Shown: one piece after another, positions 2,741 through 13,330 of the stretch
How the letters are laid out: each line of letters opens with the position of its first letter
Position numbering within the stretch: the first letter of the stretch is position 1
NCBI GenBank assembly: GCA_003535195.1
Contig: DOHN01000002.1
Coordinates: forward strand, 25,999 to 42,764
Direction: 5' to 3'
DNA: 16,766 nucleotides
Source of the DNA: Ruminiclostridium sp.
GTDB lineage: Bacteria; Bacillota; Clostridia; DSM-8532
Made by a program: the position numbers and the translations under genes
Notes under the pieces: generated by a model
Told to the model about the DNA's origin: nothing
What the model saw: the letters and a program-made list of their open reading frames with translations, nothing else
Database searches by the model: none

Positions 2741-2783
2741 TAATACTTCTTGCTGTGCCCCTTGCCTAAAAGCTTTGTTATGC
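2741..2783 (-). repeat. attC-like half-site A
   Basis: This is the distal part of the repeat family: 34 of 43 positions match 3271-3313 without gaps. It contains the conserved outer box (GCATAAC on the minus strand, 2777-2783) followed by AAAGCTTTTAGGC. No partner box or CGTAAAA arm is found at lower coordinates, so the element appears truncated or diverged. It begins 23 bases after the stop codon of the 13-residue-repeat gene, the usual place for an attC site. Confidence 0.55.
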
Positions 2784-2806
2784 GAAGTACCCTGCTATTG
2801 ATTTGA

Positions 2807-3094
2807 TTAGCATGTTATGTTCCCTTGATTTCTCTTTTCTTTTTCTATATATGATTCTGATTCAACATATTTACCATCAATACCGATAAACGAGCCTTGC
2901 GCATGATACATACCATCTGACCCTAAATAGGAACCTTTGAGATGATACTTGCCATCAACCCCACGAAAAGAACCCTCGTAATGATACATATTATCACTTC
3001 CCAAAAAGCATCCTTTGGGATGATATATACCATCAACCCCAAGAAATGAACCTTGTGGGTGATACTTTCCGTCGACTCCAAGAAATTTTCCCAT
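2807..3094 (-). CDS. Small protein made of six 13-residue repeats (cassette gene)
   Basis: This 95-residue protein of unknown function consists almost entirely of six 13-residue repeats (residues 3-80) with consensus S-[FY]-x-G-[VSI]-D-[GN]-x-Y-H-x-x-G. A charged tail (YIEKEKRNQ) follows. There is no signal peptide or membrane segment. The regular aromatic, Gly, Asp and Tyr spacing suggests a repetitive beta structure, but I do not recognise a family. The ATG at 3094 has GGAGGG seven bases upstream. The stop is 23 bases from an attC-like half-site and the start is 56 bases from another element, as in an integron gene cassette. The ORF is well formed and has a good ribosome binding site, so it is probably translated if transcribed. 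Confidence 0.8.
   Translation of the reverse strand: MGKFLGVDGKYHPQGSFLGVDGIYHPKGCFLGSDNMYHYEGSFRGVDGKYHLKGSYLGSDGMYHAQGSFIGIDGKYVESESYIEKEKRNQGNITC
2855..3088 (-). repeat. Six tandem 39-bp units coding 13-residue repeats
   Basis: Six in-frame 39-bp units encode residues 3-15, 16-28, 29-41, 42-54, 55-67 and 68-80. Units have diverged in DNA but keep the Gly-x-Asp and Tyr-His positions. This suggests old duplication with selection on the protein. The sixth unit loses the YHxxG end. Confidence 0.85.
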
Positions 3095-3150
3095 TTATAA
3101 CCCTCCTCAAATAGAATAATACTACCATGAGCTTAATATCAGGATATTTC

Positions 3151-3313
3151 GCCTAACGTTCCGGTTTTACGACACCGGCGAACCGGACAAGCGAAGTCCT
3201 TCCCTTTAGCACTGCTTGAAGCCCGGTGAGATGATGTGGGCAGCAATGACCTCATGAACCTCTTTTTACGTCATACTTCCGGCATGCCCCCTTGCGTAAA
3301 AGCTTTGTTATGT
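3151..3313 (-). repeat. attC-like element B (full length, 163 bp)
   Basis: On the minus strand it opens with ACATAAC (3307-3313), AAAGC and TTTTACGC. It closes with CGTAAAA, a 7-base spacer (CCGGAAC) and GTTAGGC (3151-3157). GTTAGGC matches the attC core site GTTRRRY exactly, and ATAACAAA resembles the opening of Vibrio cholerae repeats. The two inner 7-bp arms are perfectly complementary. The first 52 positions at the 3151 end match element C at 43 positions. A local CCGGTT/AACCGG hairpin lies inside. It ends 56 bases upstream of the next cassette gene. Confidence 0.65.
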
Positions 3314-3485
3314 ACAATAATCAATTTACAGCCCTAAAACCTTGCCGGTATTACTGAGTATTTAATCTCAAGGCCCGTAGGGTAACTATTTGCTAAATCC
3401 ACAATACCTGATATTGTTAAGTCACTATTGTTAAATGAACCCTTTCACAATAAACTATGCGAACTAAAGATTATGCTCATTTTGT

Positions 3486-3698
3486 TCATTTATTGTCTTT
3501 CATTTGGCGAATTTCTTTGATAATCCAGACCGTGCATATTACAATTACAATACAAAGCAATAATCCGGTAAACCCGATTGCTCTTATGCTTAAATCATCT
3601 GCCATAAATGGAAAAAAGTTAAACATTGCACCCGCATACCACGCTACAATGAACCCAACAGTTATCGCTATAACTTCTCTTAGAAAATTAGGTTTCAC
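3486..3698 (-). CDS. Small two-helix membrane protein (cassette gene)
   Basis: This is a 70-residue protein with two predicted membrane helices, about residues 8-28 (VIAITVGFIVAWYAGAMF) and 40-61 (AIGFTGLLLCIVIVICTVWII). A short basic tail (KEIRQMKDNK) follows. The family is not recognised. The start is placed at a GTG (3698) because GGGAGGT lies at the correct distance upstream; the longer reading from a TTG at 3716 would put this ribosome binding site inside the coding region. It lies between attC-like elements B and C, about 170 bp from B on its 3' side, and fits a cassette-borne hypothetical gene. Small membrane proteins are common in integron cassettes. Confidence 0.7.
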   Translation of the reverse strand: MKPNFLREVIAITVGFIVAWYAGAMFNFFPFMADDLSIRAIGFTGLLLCIVIVICTVWIIKEIRQMKDNK

Positions 3699-3792
3699 TT
3701 TCCTGTTACCTCCCAAGCTAATATAAATAATCTTTACGTCGCAATATTTTACTAATGTGAACAGAAATCCTTCAAAGCCAATTCTTCCAATT

Positions 3793-3811
3793 TCACCCCT
3801 GGATGGGGTGA
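3793..3811. other. Short perfect hairpin upstream of the small membrane protein gene
   Basis: TCACCCC (3793-3799) and GGGGTGA (3805-3811) form a 7-bp stem with a 5-base loop. There is no T-tract on either side, so this is not an obvious terminator. It lies between attC-like element C and the membrane protein gene, in the position of a leader or operator. Confidence 0.35.
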
Positions 3812-3828
3812 TTCAAGCTGGGAATTAT

Positions 3829-3961
3829 ATATAACGTCCCGGTTTTACGACGCCGTCGAACCGGACCAGCGGAGCCCTTCTTCTTAGCGGCTTGCCGCCC
3901 GGTGAGACGGTGTGGCAGCAAGACCCGTTAGTACGCCCAAAGCGTAAAAGCTTTGTTATAT
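3829..3961 (-). repeat. attC-like element C (full length, 133 bp)
   Basis: The outer boxes are perfectly complementary: ATATAAC (3829-3835) with GTTATAT (3955-3961). Inside them, TTTTACG (3843-3849) pairs with CGTAAAA (3943-3949), leaving internal loops of 7 and 5 bases. This nested outer-box, spacer, inner-box layout is that of an attC single-strand hairpin. The centre differs from element B by about 30 bp, as expected for attC sites, whose middles vary. It starts 44 bases past the stop of the next gene upstream in reading order. Confidence 0.65.
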
Positions 3962-4005
3962 GATGCACCCTGCACTTCAAAGCAAAGCTTATGGTTTACC
4001 CCTTT

Positions 4006-4347
4006 TTACATCAGACATTTATATAAATTGCAGTTCTTTAAATAATTTTTCCTTGCTTCCTTTAGGAGCCTATAGACCTCTTCACCAGACACACAACTAT
4101 TTACATACCCCACATAATCACATGTCCATATTGGAATATTATTGTTGTTTTCATATATATATTCAACTCCACTGTATGGATTAAAACCTCTATATGAATC
4201 CGTAAATAATAGATCTCCTATTTGGAGTTTAAAACCCCAATCATATAAGACAGATTTTGTATATGGGTTATATGTTGAACTTTTCTTAACATAACATTCA
4301 AGTCTGCCTTTAATAAGCATTCTCATTAGTTCATCTACTGAAACCAT
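4006..4347 (-). CDS. DUF5680-like small protein (cassette gene)
   Basis: This is a 113-residue protein with no signal or membrane segment. The centre and end (GDLLFTDSYRGFNPYSGVEYIYE, then NIPIWTCDYVGYV, then EEVYRLLKEA) resemble DUF5680: a D-x-Y/F-x-G-x-x-P-Y-x-G-x-E block, a hydrophobic I-P-I-W strand and a C-terminal helix. That family has no established function and the match is from memory. The start is set at an ATG at 4347, with GAGGT eight bases upstream; an in-frame ATG at 4371 has no ribosome binding site. The DNA is clearly AT-richer than the ATPase operon. It is the gene nearest the recombinase remnant, so it would be the first cassette. Confidence 0.72.
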   Translation of the reverse strand: MVSVDELMRMLIKGRLECYVKKSSTYNPYTKSVLYDWGFKLQIGDLLFTDSYRGFNPYSGVEYIYENNNNIPIWTCDYVGYVNSCVSGEEVYRLLKEARKNYLKNCNLYKCLM

Positions 4348-4374
4348 TTTCAAATACCTCAAAATAATCATTTA

Positions 4375-4440
4375 GCTTAACTAACCATTTATAAATGAGT
4401 CTTCAGCGCATTGCTCTTAAAGCAGGGTGTCTCACATAAC
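4375..4440 (-). other. Possible attI-like recombination region
   Basis: Between the recombinase remnant and the first cassette gene the minus strand holds GTTATGT (4434-4440), like the outer box of the attC-like elements, and GTTAAGC (4375-4381), an exact GTTRRRY core just before the cassette gene. Either could be the attI crossover point. These are short matches and could be chance. Confidence 0.3.
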
Positions 4441-4534
4441 TACTTCATACCAGCACACCGTGACGGGTAAGATGCTAATTGGGGTGGGTATCTGCCGGTG
4501 GTGGCGGGTAAGTATATATATCTGTGGTGGACAT

Positions 4535-4770
4535 CTAGGACTTTTCCCACTGCATAAGCCTGTCCAAGGGGCTCAAGATCTTGCCGATGCCCTTCTTTGC
4601 TACATGTGTATAAATCTCTGTCGTCTTACTGCTGCTATGTCCTAAGAGCCCCTGAATGTAGCGTAATCAGTGCCTTCTTCCAGAAGATGAGTTGCAAATG
4701 AATGTCTGAGAGAATGAATTAATACTTCCTATATTATACCAGGTTTTTGCATACGATCTTAAAAAGCACT
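4535..4770 (-). pseudogene. Tyrosine recombinase C-terminus, possibly an integron integrase (broken)
   Basis: Two reading frames together encode the last 80 or so residues of a tyrosine recombinase. The first holds IHSLRHSFATHLLEEGTD, with HxxR of the catalytic set. A one-base deletion near 4661-4663 shifts to the second frame, YIQGLLGHSS...TEIYTHVAKKGIGKILSPLDRL, with the LLGH histidine and the nucleophilic tyrosine, then a TAG at 4535. A further in-frame stop lies upstream of IHSLRH. The N-terminal domain and first arginine box are absent: the ATPase operon terminator begins where they should be. The SPLD tail after the tyrosine resembles IntI proteins, but the IntI-specific extra helix lies in the lost part, so a XerC/XerD-like or phage recombinase cannot be excluded. 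Confidence 0.85.
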
Positions 4771-4783
4771 TATTATTGTCTTA

Positions 4784-10206: not shown

Positions 10207-10809
10207 TTAATCTTCAAATAAAATTGCGGCTACTTCAGACTCCAAATTGGGTCTTGCCATATTTAATATGACATCAAGAGTACAATTTATCTCCATATCA
10301 CCATACCGGATAATAAAGCCACCGGAAGTATTCAATGTTTCCTCTCCCAACTTCAATACCGCTTTCTTCCCTTTTTCGGCAAGCCTGCTGTTCACGGCCG
10401 CGACAAAGCCGCCGCCCAGGCGCGCTTTGTCTTTTTCATTGAACAGTATGGTCCCTTCTTCTTCTTTTGCCGCATCTAAAGCAATGCTTTCCAAAAAAAG
10501 CCGGTACTGATCACCGGGCAAGCCGCTTAAACGCGAAAGAGCATTACTGAATGCCTCATCTATGCTATCCTGGCGGGCTTTTAATATTTTCTTTTTGTCT
10601 TCCATTCCCTCTGCAGCATGAAAACGCTGTTTTATTCGAACAGCTTCTTCTTTGGCCTTTTCAGTCATGACGGTAACCCTCTGAAAGGCTTCCTTTTCAG
10701 CGTTTCCTATAATGCTTTGGGCCTCCTGTCCGGCGTCAGCCAGAATGGTTTCCCGCAAATCTCTGGCATCCGCTAAAATCCTGTCTTTTATTTTCTCGGC
10801 TCCACTCAT
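10207..10809 (-). CDS. atpE: V-type ATP synthase subunit E (peripheral stalk)
   Basis: This 200-residue subunit of the peripheral stalk holds the head still against rotation, paired with the small H/G-type subunit. The N-terminal half (about 1-95) is a long charged helix rich in Ala, Glu, Lys and Arg, as expected for a coiled-coil stator. The C-terminal half is a compact domain ending GGFIIRYGDMEINCTLDVIL. Length matches the vATP-synt_E family. The ATG at 10809 has GAAGGGG upstream and is 17 bases after subunit K. Confidence 0.94.
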   Translation of the reverse strand: MSGAEKIKDRILADARDLRETILADAGQEAQSIIGNAEKEAFQRVTVMTEKAKEEAVRIKQRFHAAEGMEDKKKILKARQDSIDEAFSNALSRLSGLPGDQYRLFLESIALDAAKEEEGTILFNEKDKARLGGGFVAAVNSRLAEKGKKAVLKLGEETLNTSGGFIIRYGDMEINCTLDVILNMARPNLESEVAAILFED

Positions 10810-10826
10810 TGCATAGGCCCCTTCAT

Positions 10827-11303
10827 TTAAATTTTACCCAACATAAGGATTGAGACAACAAGGCTCAAAATGGCAAACATCTCAACCATCAGCGCATAGA
10901 TAATACCGCTTCCAAGAGCTTCAGGCCTCTTGGCAACCAGATGAATGCCCGCCGTGGCAACTTTGCCCTGGTAAATTGCGGACACATAACCCACTATACC
11001 TACCGGCAGACCTGTAGCCAAAAGAGAAAGGCCCTGCTCAAGGGTAGAAACATTGCCCATTTTACCTATAATCATGAATGCGATAACAAACCCATAAATG
11101 GACTGGGTTGCGGGAAGAGCCTGCAGAATCATCGTCGCACTGAACCTGCTCGGTTCCTCAGCAACGACTCCTGCGGCAGCCTGACCGGCAATACCACAGC
11201 CCTTTGACGAACCTAAAGCGGCCACCAAAAAGGCAATGGCAGCGCCCAGTAAAGCGTACACTTTCGGGTTAAGAAAAAGATCAGCAAATCGTAGTTCTGG
11301 CAT
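10827..11303 (-). CDS. ntpK: V-type ATP synthase subunit K (membrane rotor ring, Na+-type)
   Basis: This 158-residue proteolipid has four membrane helices arising from a duplicated hairpin. The first hairpin has GSSKGCGIAGQAAAG and the second TAGIHLVAKRPEALGSGII. Ion-binding residues are visible: Leu63, Thr66 and Gln67 in LPATQ, Gln112 in AIYQGKVA, and Glu141 in MVEMFAIL. These correspond, with a constant offset of two, to Leu61, Thr64, Gln65, Gln110 and Glu139, the Na+ ligands of Enterococcus hirae NtpK. Na+ is therefore the likely coupling ion. As in other V-type rings, only the second hairpin carries the carboxylate. An ideal AGGAGG precedes the ATG. Confidence 0.95.
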   Translation of the reverse strand: MPELRFADLFLNPKVYALLGAAIAFLVAALGSSKGCGIAGQAAAGVVAEEPSRFSATMILQALPATQSIYGFVIAFMIIGKMGNVSTLEQGLSLLATGLPVGIVGYVSAIYQGKVATAGIHLVAKRPEALGSGIIYALMVEMFAILSLVVSILMLGKI

Positions 11304-11329
11304 TTTTGTAATCCTCCTAAAATTATGTT

Positions 11330-13330
11330 TTATACAATACCGGTCTTTAATCCGGAATTCAGAAACAAATTATTTTCAGTCTTTATAATGATATATTTTG
11401 TATTGGCTTTCAAGGGCTTAAAGGCCTGGCCCCCGCCTTCAAGAAACTTACCGAAAAACTCCAGAAACTGAAGTCTGCTTGAATGTACATACGCGCCCAG
11501 AGCATTCAGGGCAAAATTCAGTGTATGTCCAAAGAGCAGTATAGGAACCATTACAAGCAGCTTTACAATGAAGTTTCCGCCCAAGGCTGCGCTCAGCGTA
11601 TTGACAATATCGCCGATAATTGCAGAGGCAAGGCCCAGAGCCAATATTCTTGTATAGGAAAGGCAATCGCTGAAAAAGCTGACTACATCGTAAAGCCTTG
11701 GTAAGCCTCCAAATATTTTCCCAAAAATATTTTTTGATTTTCTTCCGTTTGTGGCAAGTACCAACACCACGCCGACAATAAATATTTTATAGCCGGCCTG
11801 TACAATCCCGCTCGAGCTGGAAATGCTGATACCCGGCGCAAATGGAAGCAGGGACAGAATAAACCCTGTAAACATGACATAAATAAAACCTACGTCAAAT
11901 ACCGCATCCAAAATCTGACCGCGGCGTATCAAATTCAGCGCCTTCATAAAAAGTCCGGTATACATATGAATAATGCCTATAAGTATGGAATAACTCATCA
12001 TAAGCTCGGGCTGTTCCGTCGGGACGATCCATAGGGCCGTTTTACTAAGAGAGGCAATACCGAACCAGCTGCCGAAAAGGAATCCCGCCAAAATGGTTGA
12101 AAGGCCACAGAAGAATAAAAGCTTCATAAAAACCCTGGTGGAATCTTCCAGGCGATATTTCTTTAATATAATCCCGGTAAAGAGGGCAATCAAAATCCCA
12201 TAGCCCCCATCACCAAGCATCAGCCCGAAAAAGAAAATGTAGAATGGAAAAGTAATAGGACTGGGGTCAATTTCGAGACTGGATGGCACGCCATACATAT
12301 TAATAATAGGTGAAATAGATTCCACAACAGGCCCGTTCTTCAAAAGTACGGGGAATTCTTCATCCTTTGCAGGCGCTTCTATCTCAACCATACAAAAATA
12401 ATGCTCGTCCAGATATTCCGTGACCTTAGAGGAATGTTCAGCCGGCAGCCAACCCTTGAGTAAAAACGCCGACCTGGTGGAAATCAAACGGCTTTTGGCC
12501 TCAATTTTCGCCCGGTCCATCTGAAGGCTGTCATAAATGGTCTCAAGCCTTTCGCGCTCATCGGCCATTTTTATAATACCTTTGATTTTTTCCTCCCGCT
12601 CCTTGAGGAGGGATTGCAGCCTTTCTTCTAAGCGAGCCTTGCTTCTCTTTGCATTTCCTTCCACATCCCGCAAAACGATCCGGTTCCACCCCCAAGCTCT
12701 GGCCAGACTCAGCATTTCCGTTTCAATGGATTTATGCCCGATCAACATAACATAATGGTGATCGGCATCGCTTTTACCTGTTAAAAGATCCGATTCGGGG
12801 AATTCCCCCTGAATCGCTTCCTGAAATTTCTTTAAATCTGTCCCTGAGGGTAAGCTTCCCGTATAGCAGAAAGTATAACGAGTGTTTATGACATCCAGAG
12901 GAATATCCAATTCAAGCCAAGGGTTCAGCGAAGTCAACAGAGTTTTGATACGATTTTCTTCACTTTTCATCTTAGCGATTTCATCTTCAAAGCGATTAAT
13001 TTTATCAGCATCAGCCAATATTTTATTCTTATTCTTGAGAATAGCCGAATAATCTGATTCTGAAACAATCCTTCTGGCAGAAAACATGGGTTTCTTAACA
13101 GGAACATATTGGCTGAGAATATCCAGTGCCCGCAAAATTTCTGTCAACGAGTTATCTATTTTTGCTAAATCATTCTGCACATTGGGATTTTGAATCCTGT
13201 CCCTGAGTTCTTCATCGGGCTCAACCTGGTCAATTTCCACCACGCCCATCTTCATCAGTGACTTCAGCAGTTCAGATCGCTCTTCGATAAGCCCCAGCAC
13301 AGCAATCTTATTCATCTTAACTACTGACAC
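11330..13330 (-). CDS. ntpI: V-type ATP synthase subunit I (membrane stator)
   Basis: This 666-residue stator subunit, equivalent to eukaryotic subunit a, forms the ion half-channels against the K-ring. The first 340 or so residues are a cytosolic region with coiled-coil stretches that binds the peripheral stalks. The rest holds about seven or eight membrane helices. The conserved SYTRILALGLASAIIG carries the essential arginine (about residue 561), and the family block GAYVHSSRLQFLEFFGKFLEGG is present. The start is a GTG at 13330, giving MSVVKMNKIAVLG, a common family start. An ATG at 13315 is the alternative. The GTG overlaps the end of subunit H by ten bases, so the two are likely coupled. 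Confidence 0.95.
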   Translation of the reverse strand: MSVVKMNKIAVLGLIEERSELLKSLMKMGVVEIDQVEPDEELRDRIQNPNVQNDLAKIDNSLTEILRALDILSQYVPVKKPMFSARRIVSESDYSAILKNKNKILADADKINRFEDEIAKMKSEENRIKTLLTSLNPWLELDIPLDVINTRYTFCYTGSLPSGTDLKKFQEAIQGEFPESDLLTGKSDADHHYVMLIGHKSIETEMLSLARAWGWNRIVLRDVEGNAKRSKARLEERLQSLLKEREEKIKGIIKMADERERLETIYDSLQMDRAKIEAKSRLISTRSAFLLKGWLPAEHSSKVTEYLDEHYFCMVEIEAPAKDEEFPVLLKNGPVVESISPIINMYGVPSSLEIDPSPITFPFYIFFFGLMLGDGGYGILIALFTGIILKKYRLEDSTRVFMKLLFFCGLSTILAGFLFGSWFGIASLSKTALWIVPTEQPELMMSYSILIGIIHMYTGLFMKALNLIRRGQILDAVFDVGFIYVMFTGFILSLLPFAPGISISSSSGIVQAGYKIFIVGVVLVLATNGRKSKNIFGKIFGGLPRLYDVVSFFSDCLSYTRILALGLASAIIGDIVNTLSAALGGNFIVKLLVMVPILLFGHTLNFALNALGAYVHSSRLQFLEFFGKFLEGGGQAFKPLKANTKYIIIKTENNLFLNSGLKTGIV

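Follow-up and report, generated by a model that had tools for sequence, protein, structure and literature searches.

A probable decayed integron in a clostridial chromosome and its relatives with an integrase that lacks the IntI-specific insertion

Integrons are described as extremely rare in Firmicutes: the available sections of the IntegronFinder 2.0 report name one complete integron in this phylum, that of Limnochorda pilosa, and a few clusters of attC sites lacking an integrase (CALINs) (PMC9024848). In canonical systems the integrase IntI carries the I2 helix. According to the accessible text of PMC7790495, the capture of cassettes requires this helix, no other protein has it, and its acquisition is what gave rise to integron integrases; its causal role is said there to lack direct proof, since deletion of I2 abolishes IntI1 function. 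In this work we analysed 16,766 nucleotides of the Ruminiclostridium sp. chromosome (contig DOHN01000002.1, positions 25,999 to 42,764; this whole stretch is called the window), which belong to a 66-kb contig of a metagenome-assembled genome (MAG; 213 contigs, 81.6% complete). Its minus strand carries, in the order from 4782 to 2741, the broken C-terminus of a recombinase, an attI-like region, cassette 3, attC C, cassette 2, attC B, cassette 1 and the first arm of attC A. Judging from the sequence, we suggest, with a probability of roughly 85%, that the locus is a decayed sedentary chromosomal integron of a distinct clostridial lineage, whose relatives are co-directional and devoid of I2.

Sites, cassettes and attI-like regions

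The initial annotation of this DNA had described three small genes of one orientation separated by elements with attC architecture, and this description was confirmed: the genes lie on the minus strand, and between them stand the attC-like elements B and C, with a piece of a third, A. The right arm of the repeat is present in three copies (at 2743, 3273 and 3921), and its left arm and centre in two copies each (3154/3832 and 3214/3890), which are 84-85% identical. The order of genes and sites, for which an inverted integron had been considered, had to be corrected: read in the sense of the genes (minus strand), each gene is followed by its attC, which is the ordinary order.

A covariance model of the site (R1, 100 positions) was built from 10 elements, two of which (B and C) come from the window. 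It recognised 184 sites in the window and 40 fetched loci, 182 of them beyond B and C. Matches were obtained in 7 of 32 genomes of the family (E <= 0.01), 34 of 391 genomes of the class (E <= 1e-4) and 8 of 299 genomes of the phylum (E <= 1e-5), the own genome being counted in every tally; without it, the last figure is 7 of 298, and these seven lie outside the class. An integrase motif scan of stretches from three out-of-class genomes (G652, G470 and G577) revealed no integrase. Within the own genome the B/C elements are confined to the window locus, the next matches having E values of 0.33 or worse. At the DNA level, 9 of 99 genomes searched, among them the own genome, contain matches to the elements. 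The pattern scan of named genomes returned 107 stretches, and the 80 listed include those of Alkaliphilus peptidifermentans, A. serpentinus, A. pronyensis, A. transvaalensis, Anaerovirgula multivorans, Natronincola peptidivorans and Geosporobacter ferrireducens; several listed stretches of other phyla are probably chance matches.

In all 20 loci having at least three of the 165 sites examined, the array occupies a single strand. For the analyses of site structure 165 of the 184 R1 sites were carried on, and 146 of these have a GTT near the R' end, at the expected place in 145, which is partly a consequence of the model; an R'' candidate accompanies it in 130 of the 146. In the skeleton formed by the R, L and central stems, standard pairs fill 81.4% of the cells, compared with 73.9% after shuffling and at most 38.9% when the arms are slid (12 sites, MAFFT alignment). 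The central helix is 94.3% paired, with two-sided changes in 9 of its 10 pairs (147 model-aligned sites, the alignment leaning towards the model). The L''/L' duplex scores 6.49 within a site and 4.30 (standard deviation 0.13) with shuffled partners (n = 130). A one-base bulge of the L stem that adds at least three pairs was detected in only 3 of 130 clostridial sites, 127 being without it. The script caught the bulge in both canonical attC sites of its control, a small one (five canonical loci scanned, both sites in L284). Folding as a single strand is strong in one relative (z = -4.39) and moderate for C (z = -2.0 and -2.5).

A longer form of the site, 183-185 bp, was also observed (L045:6062-6244 and L046:771-955). 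Its central hairpin differs, and its R and L boxes pair without a mismatch; the fold of the L045 site has a z of -4.39.

If cassettes move as circles opened between G and TT, the expected partner of R'' is the R' that bounds its own cassette upstream, rather than the adjacent R'. This register was examined in 95 pairs with a neighbour within 2600 bp, at four variable positions per pair. R'' agreed with the R' of its own cassette at 3.24 of 4 positions (55 of 95 pairs perfect), compared with 1.96 (standard deviation 0.08) for shuffled pairs, and none of 10,000 shuffles was as high. The fit to the R' of the same element was 2.21 of 4 (13 of 95 perfect), a value reached by 20 of 10,000 shuffles, i.e. 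slightly above chance. When partners were shuffled within loci (87 pairs, 13 loci), the own-cassette fit of 3.28 was again out of reach (2.25, standard deviation 0.098; 0 of 5000), while the in-element value of 2.22 equalled chance.

The cassettes have a pitch of 627-2668 bp (median 956). The 95 cassettes yielded 94 open reading frames (ORFs) of at least 50 aa, and the longest ORF was co-directional with the array in 82 of the 94 and in 77 of the 84 with at least 100 aa. Cassette 2 of the window was tallied as opposite, its 76-aa gene being overlapped by a longer ORF on the plus strand. A conserved operon was considered and rejected, as only three homologous pairs occur among the 94 cassette proteins. 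The family scan covered 78 array-direction proteins of at least 80 aa, with matches drawn from the 25 families listed per scan; among these matches, PF00583 (GNAT) is present in 14 of the 78 proteins, DUF5680, as in the window, in one, and some others match defence models.

Some cassettes are shared across genera. G235 and G337 have a common block, 90.7% identical over 806 bp, which starts within 6 nt of the cassette border in both. The block common to G110 and G345 (82.5% over 851 bp) starts precisely at the cassette border in one of the two genomes; in the other its start coincides with the attI core. Both blocks cross genera.

Downstream of the integrase stop codon, 12 loci and the window align in an attI-like region, with a G/TT core 66-138 nt past the stop. 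Repeats are clear in this region in several loci, e.g. TATTCACGAACTTATGTTCGTAGATACC and a near copy in L241. In the eight loci compared, the window included, the core agrees with the R'' of the first detected attC at 29 of 32 positions, a value that 4 of 40,320 permutations reach; the permutation test admits every GTT of the 150 nt, the cores having first been picked by eye. The fit is 4/4 in six loci and 3/4 in the window, where the 150 nt past the integrase remnant contain a single GTT.

The recombinase of the arrays

A broken tyrosine recombinase had been reported to adjoin the array, and it is indeed there, reduced to about 78 C-terminal codons in two frames. The initial annotation also proposed a search of relatives for longer arrays with an intact recombinase. 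Such arrays were found, and their integrase lacks the IntI-specific insertion, which the annotation had not foreseen. The recombinase is present in 12 fetched loci (292-388 aa as called), one further enzyme (L253) being of another type. In 9 of these 12 loci the sites lie behind the recombinase gene and on its strand; the other three lie at contig ends or before runs of N.

In the alignment, the insertion, which holds the I2 helix, is missing from all 15 array-type integrases (the 12 from fetched loci and three from named genomes) and present in 5 of 5 IntI. The cut-off of TIGR02249 (integron integrase; 265 bits) is not reached by the five array-type proteins scored, which obtain 207.9-225.4 bits, and none of 24 genomes exceeds it. 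The cut-off of NF040815 (site-specific tyrosine recombinase/integron integrase; 220 bits) is passed by 5 of 5 clostridial integrases. In clostridial genomes the TIGR02249 match is split (2-180 and 231-315), because the insertion is missing from the array-type integrases; such a two-piece match (E <= 1e-25) was found in five of six named clostridial genomes, Anaerovirgula having none. The window remnant reaches summed tblastn scores of 95.9-109.0 bits with the 15 array-type integrases, 75.8-85.8 with five IntI and 30.4-66.2 with four Xer, and TIGR02249 matches it in pieces of 40.8 and 30 bits. On these sequence scores, the remnant is nearest to the array-type family.

The 391 class genomes were taken as one set across the searches for sites, IntI and the integrase, on the basis of equal size and shared handles. 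Relatives of the L241 integrase (E <= 1e-50) occur in 22 of them, and sites were found in 18 of these 22 genomes versus 16 of the 369 without the integrase (Fisher p = 2.8e-18). At E <= 1e-30, relatives are very numerous (7989 proteins among 7998 candidates). On the integrase-bearing stretches of G328, G354 and G305, R1 gave no match. No canonical IntI was found at E <= 1e-45 in the 391 genomes, with at most five candidates scored per genome and with control genomes silent too; the IntI profile exceeds its own cut-off in 3 of 20 other genomes, and therefore works. The proposal that the parts form one system is supported by the one-strand arrays (20/20 loci), by the recombinase upstream on the same strand (9/12 loci) and by this co-occurrence.

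A tree of 38 rows with a midpoint root places IntI in one clade (100/99) and the array enzymes with their relatives opposite (89/66), four clostridial Xer proteins standing apart. The nearest solved sequences are archaeal XerA (4a8e, 132 bits) and IntI4 (2a3v, 129 bits). XerA and IntI are also the best folds for a model of the full-length integrase, in which the domain packing is uncertain (predicted template modelling score, pTM, 0.57). At the N-terminus the array-type integrases bear a putative HARP-like domain, a candidate for the HARP / XPB-DRD type. LexA-type boxes precede the integrase genes in 3 of 13 loci.

Several observations concern single recombinase loci. The recombinase encoded on a Chryseobacterium plasmid (L286:4983-6026) likewise belongs to the I2-less type and shares the N-terminal domain; small genes, all in one direction, come after it. 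G305 (L348:5620-6351) and G050 (L349:624-1355), which represent two different families, carry recombinases with equal match coordinates and one in-frame TAA each, on open stretches of equal length and end; this points to recent transfer or contamination. In G298, two nearly identical 482-aa ORFs (L241:3931-5379 and 10246-11694), resembling an IS91-type transposase by eye, flank the integrase and the first cassettes.

Layout of the window and its surroundings

The features of the locus are collected in the table. It contains three genes (2807-3094, 3486-3716 and 4006-4371, all on the minus strand), and a clear Pfam match was obtained for the third alone (DUF5680, E = 1.3e-11). The plus-strand ORF that overlaps the middle gene spans 3457-3726 (89 aa), and within the middle gene GGGAGGT precedes a GTG start.

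Features of the integron-like locus in the window (coordinates of the window)
Feature	Position	Strand	Remarks
Integrase remnant	4550..4782	minus	about 78 C-terminal codons in two frames (4782-4666, 4666-4550); weaker profile match extends to 4851
attI-like region	4426..4540	minus	core G4440/T4439 (GTTATGT); aligns with attI-like regions of 12 loci
Cassette 3	3835..4439	minus	DUF5680 gene 4006-4371 inside; G/TT borders of attI and attC C
attC C	3829..3961	minus	133 bp; R'' ATATAAC ... R' GTTATAT; R1 108 bits (training sequence)
Cassette 2	3157..3834	minus	76-aa ORF 3486-3716; least certain gene call
attC B	3151..3313	minus	163 bp; R'' ACATAAC ... R' GTTAGGC; R1 95.4 bits (training sequence)
Cassette 1	2741..3156	minus	truncated at its own attC; repeat-protein gene 2807-3094 behind GAGGAGG
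attC A	2741..2783	minus	first arm only, about 43 bp; R'' GCATAAC

The protein of cassette 1 consists of 13-residue repeats (39-nt units) and has eight short unnamed homologues (E <= 1e-5). The congener G011 carries, downstream of the same V-ATPase gene and behind GTTATAT, 87 bp that are 81.6% identical to the start of cassette 2; the ORF behind this stretch is RidA-like by eye. A hairpin in the first part of cassette 2 (3750-3835; L323:1094-1178 in G011) retains its pairing despite base changes. An R1 search of about 1.5 kb of flank 3' of the V-ATPase D gene in 11 congeners found no site.

The array is flanked on one side by a LacI-type regulator gene and on the other by an operon that we take to be that of a V-type ATPase, presumed from familiar features of its subunits, except subunit D. 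The 17-base palindromic word ACGTGCCCGGGCAACTA occurs on either side of the regulator gene (1243-1259 and 2406-2422), upstream of this gene and of the neighbouring sugar-binding protein gene, with 0 copies expected in shuffled sequence; it is probably the operator of the regulator. An Rfam scan gave three matches, all at chance level, and a scan for transfer RNA genes found none. A search for plasmid relatives of element B gave a single 29-bp match.

Interpretation and comparison with known systems

As far as sequence comparison can tell, the clostridial system works like an integron and has the integron features tested, and its integrase is outside IntI by both the profile cut-off and the insertion. 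In the intact relatives, the insertion-less tyrosine recombinase with the HARP-like domain would join the attC of a cassette to the attI behind its own gene. Insertion of the cassette would take place within the core GTTNNNN, between its G and the following TT, and successive cassettes would accumulate in an array co-directional with the integrase gene. We infer that the I2-less recombinase is the active enzyme and that its substrate is attC folded as a single strand, which the HARP-like domain might read in place of I2. The window would then hold a fossil of such a system, broken in both its integrase and its last attC, which agrees with the decayed integron-like array initially proposed.

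Beyond the window, we lean slightly towards a wider proposal: that a second integron lineage is spread in Clostridia, in which folded sites are captured without I2, through the N-terminal HARP/XPB-like domain, and the L stem of attC is without an extrahelical base.

Several observations speak against the reading of the locus as a decayed integron of this lineage. The insertion is reported to be necessary in IntI (PMC7790495, available text). Folded as single strands, B and two relatives do no better than shuffled sequences. In the window, the R boxes agree at 3, 3 and 3 of 4 positions across cassettes and at 4 and 2 of 4 within elements, so that the window alone does not decide the register; the attI core of L229 fits in just 2 of 4. 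Among the 34 site-bearing genomes, 16, the own one among them, have no L241-type integrase at E <= 1e-50, no site was detected in 4 of the 22 integrase-bearing genomes, and one of the 18 co-occurrences (G137) rests on a recombinase of the other type. As the MAG is 81.6% complete, an intact integrase may also be present elsewhere in the own genome.

These arrays could be true integrons whose cassettes are moved by XerC/D or by an unseen recombinase, the I2-less enzyme being a bystander; XerC/D-like proteins are present in the genomes searched, and IntI1 is described as needing its I2 domain to capture cassettes (PMC7790495, available text). The attI-like site behind the recombinase gene in 12 loci and the co-occurrence of recombinase and sites across genomes make this improbable. 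Canonical integrons move between phyla, and the locus might therefore derive from one of them, with an IntI bearing I2, that has since decayed. Firmicutes appear among the integron-bearing phyla in the accessible part of PMC8618304, and the remnant lies downstream of the insertion's place, so that absence of the insertion cannot be shown from the window itself. However, the I2-less family gives the remnant higher scores than IntI does, B and C fall in the clostridial site family, and the IntI search of the class genomes was negative with a profile that exceeds its cut-off elsewhere, which leaves such an origin very unlikely.

The strong covariation in the stems of the elements would also suit a dispersed repeat, of the miniature inverted-repeat transposable element (MITE) or repetitive extragenic palindrome (REP) type, or an ordinary operon with repeated terminators, the recombinase nearby being unrelated in either case. 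To this we give the least credence, because the arrays are one-stranded, the R boxes match between the two ends of a cassette rather than inside one element, the attI core matches and the genes are unrelated. The initial annotation had named results that would refute the integron-like array, among them sites dispersed singly and genes in a conserved operon, and neither of these two was found. A decayed integron of the I2-less clostridial lineage is the reading we prefer.

The lineage bears on the origin of integrons, because its recombinase is without a protein part thought essential for them. If it is real, it may stand near an I2-less ancestor of integrons or represent an independent solution to single-strand recombination. 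Natural integrons devoid of both I2 and the L-stem bulge would make the question of the causal role of I2 testable, and the view of integrons as extremely rare in Firmicutes, as worded in the available sections of PMC9024848, would change. Among the full-text matches listed in our literature search, which covers no preprints, there was no report of an I2-less clostridial integron lineage. The clostridial integrases would presumably escape any search that requires the IntI-specific domain.

Like canonical integrons, the clostridial system has an integrase gene, attI, attC arrays and a G/TT crossover, as well as mostly one-gene cassettes that are read with the array and are diverse in content and rich in GNAT acetyltransferases. 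It differs in that its integrase is without the IntI-specific insertion, bears a putative HARP-like domain at its N-terminus and reads toward the array, and in that the L stem of attC is bulge-free in 127 of 130 sites. The same orientation, with intI transcribed toward attI and in the direction of the cassette genes, is known from Treponema integrons, which are treated as integrons with intI in the available text of PMC3607928; they were compared by description only. The study of an 'integron-like' subgroup of tyrosine recombinases (PMC8138268), in its accessible portion, calls the insertion essential for integron function and ties no array to insertion-less members. NF040815 accommodates all five clostridial integrases tested; its name, however, spans Xer and integron integrases and is silent on arrays. 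The integron of Limnochorda pilosa and the Firmicutes CALINs (PMC9024848, available sections), likewise compared by description only, resemble our loci as integron parts in Firmicutes, and some of the reported parts could belong to the I2-less clostridial lineage.

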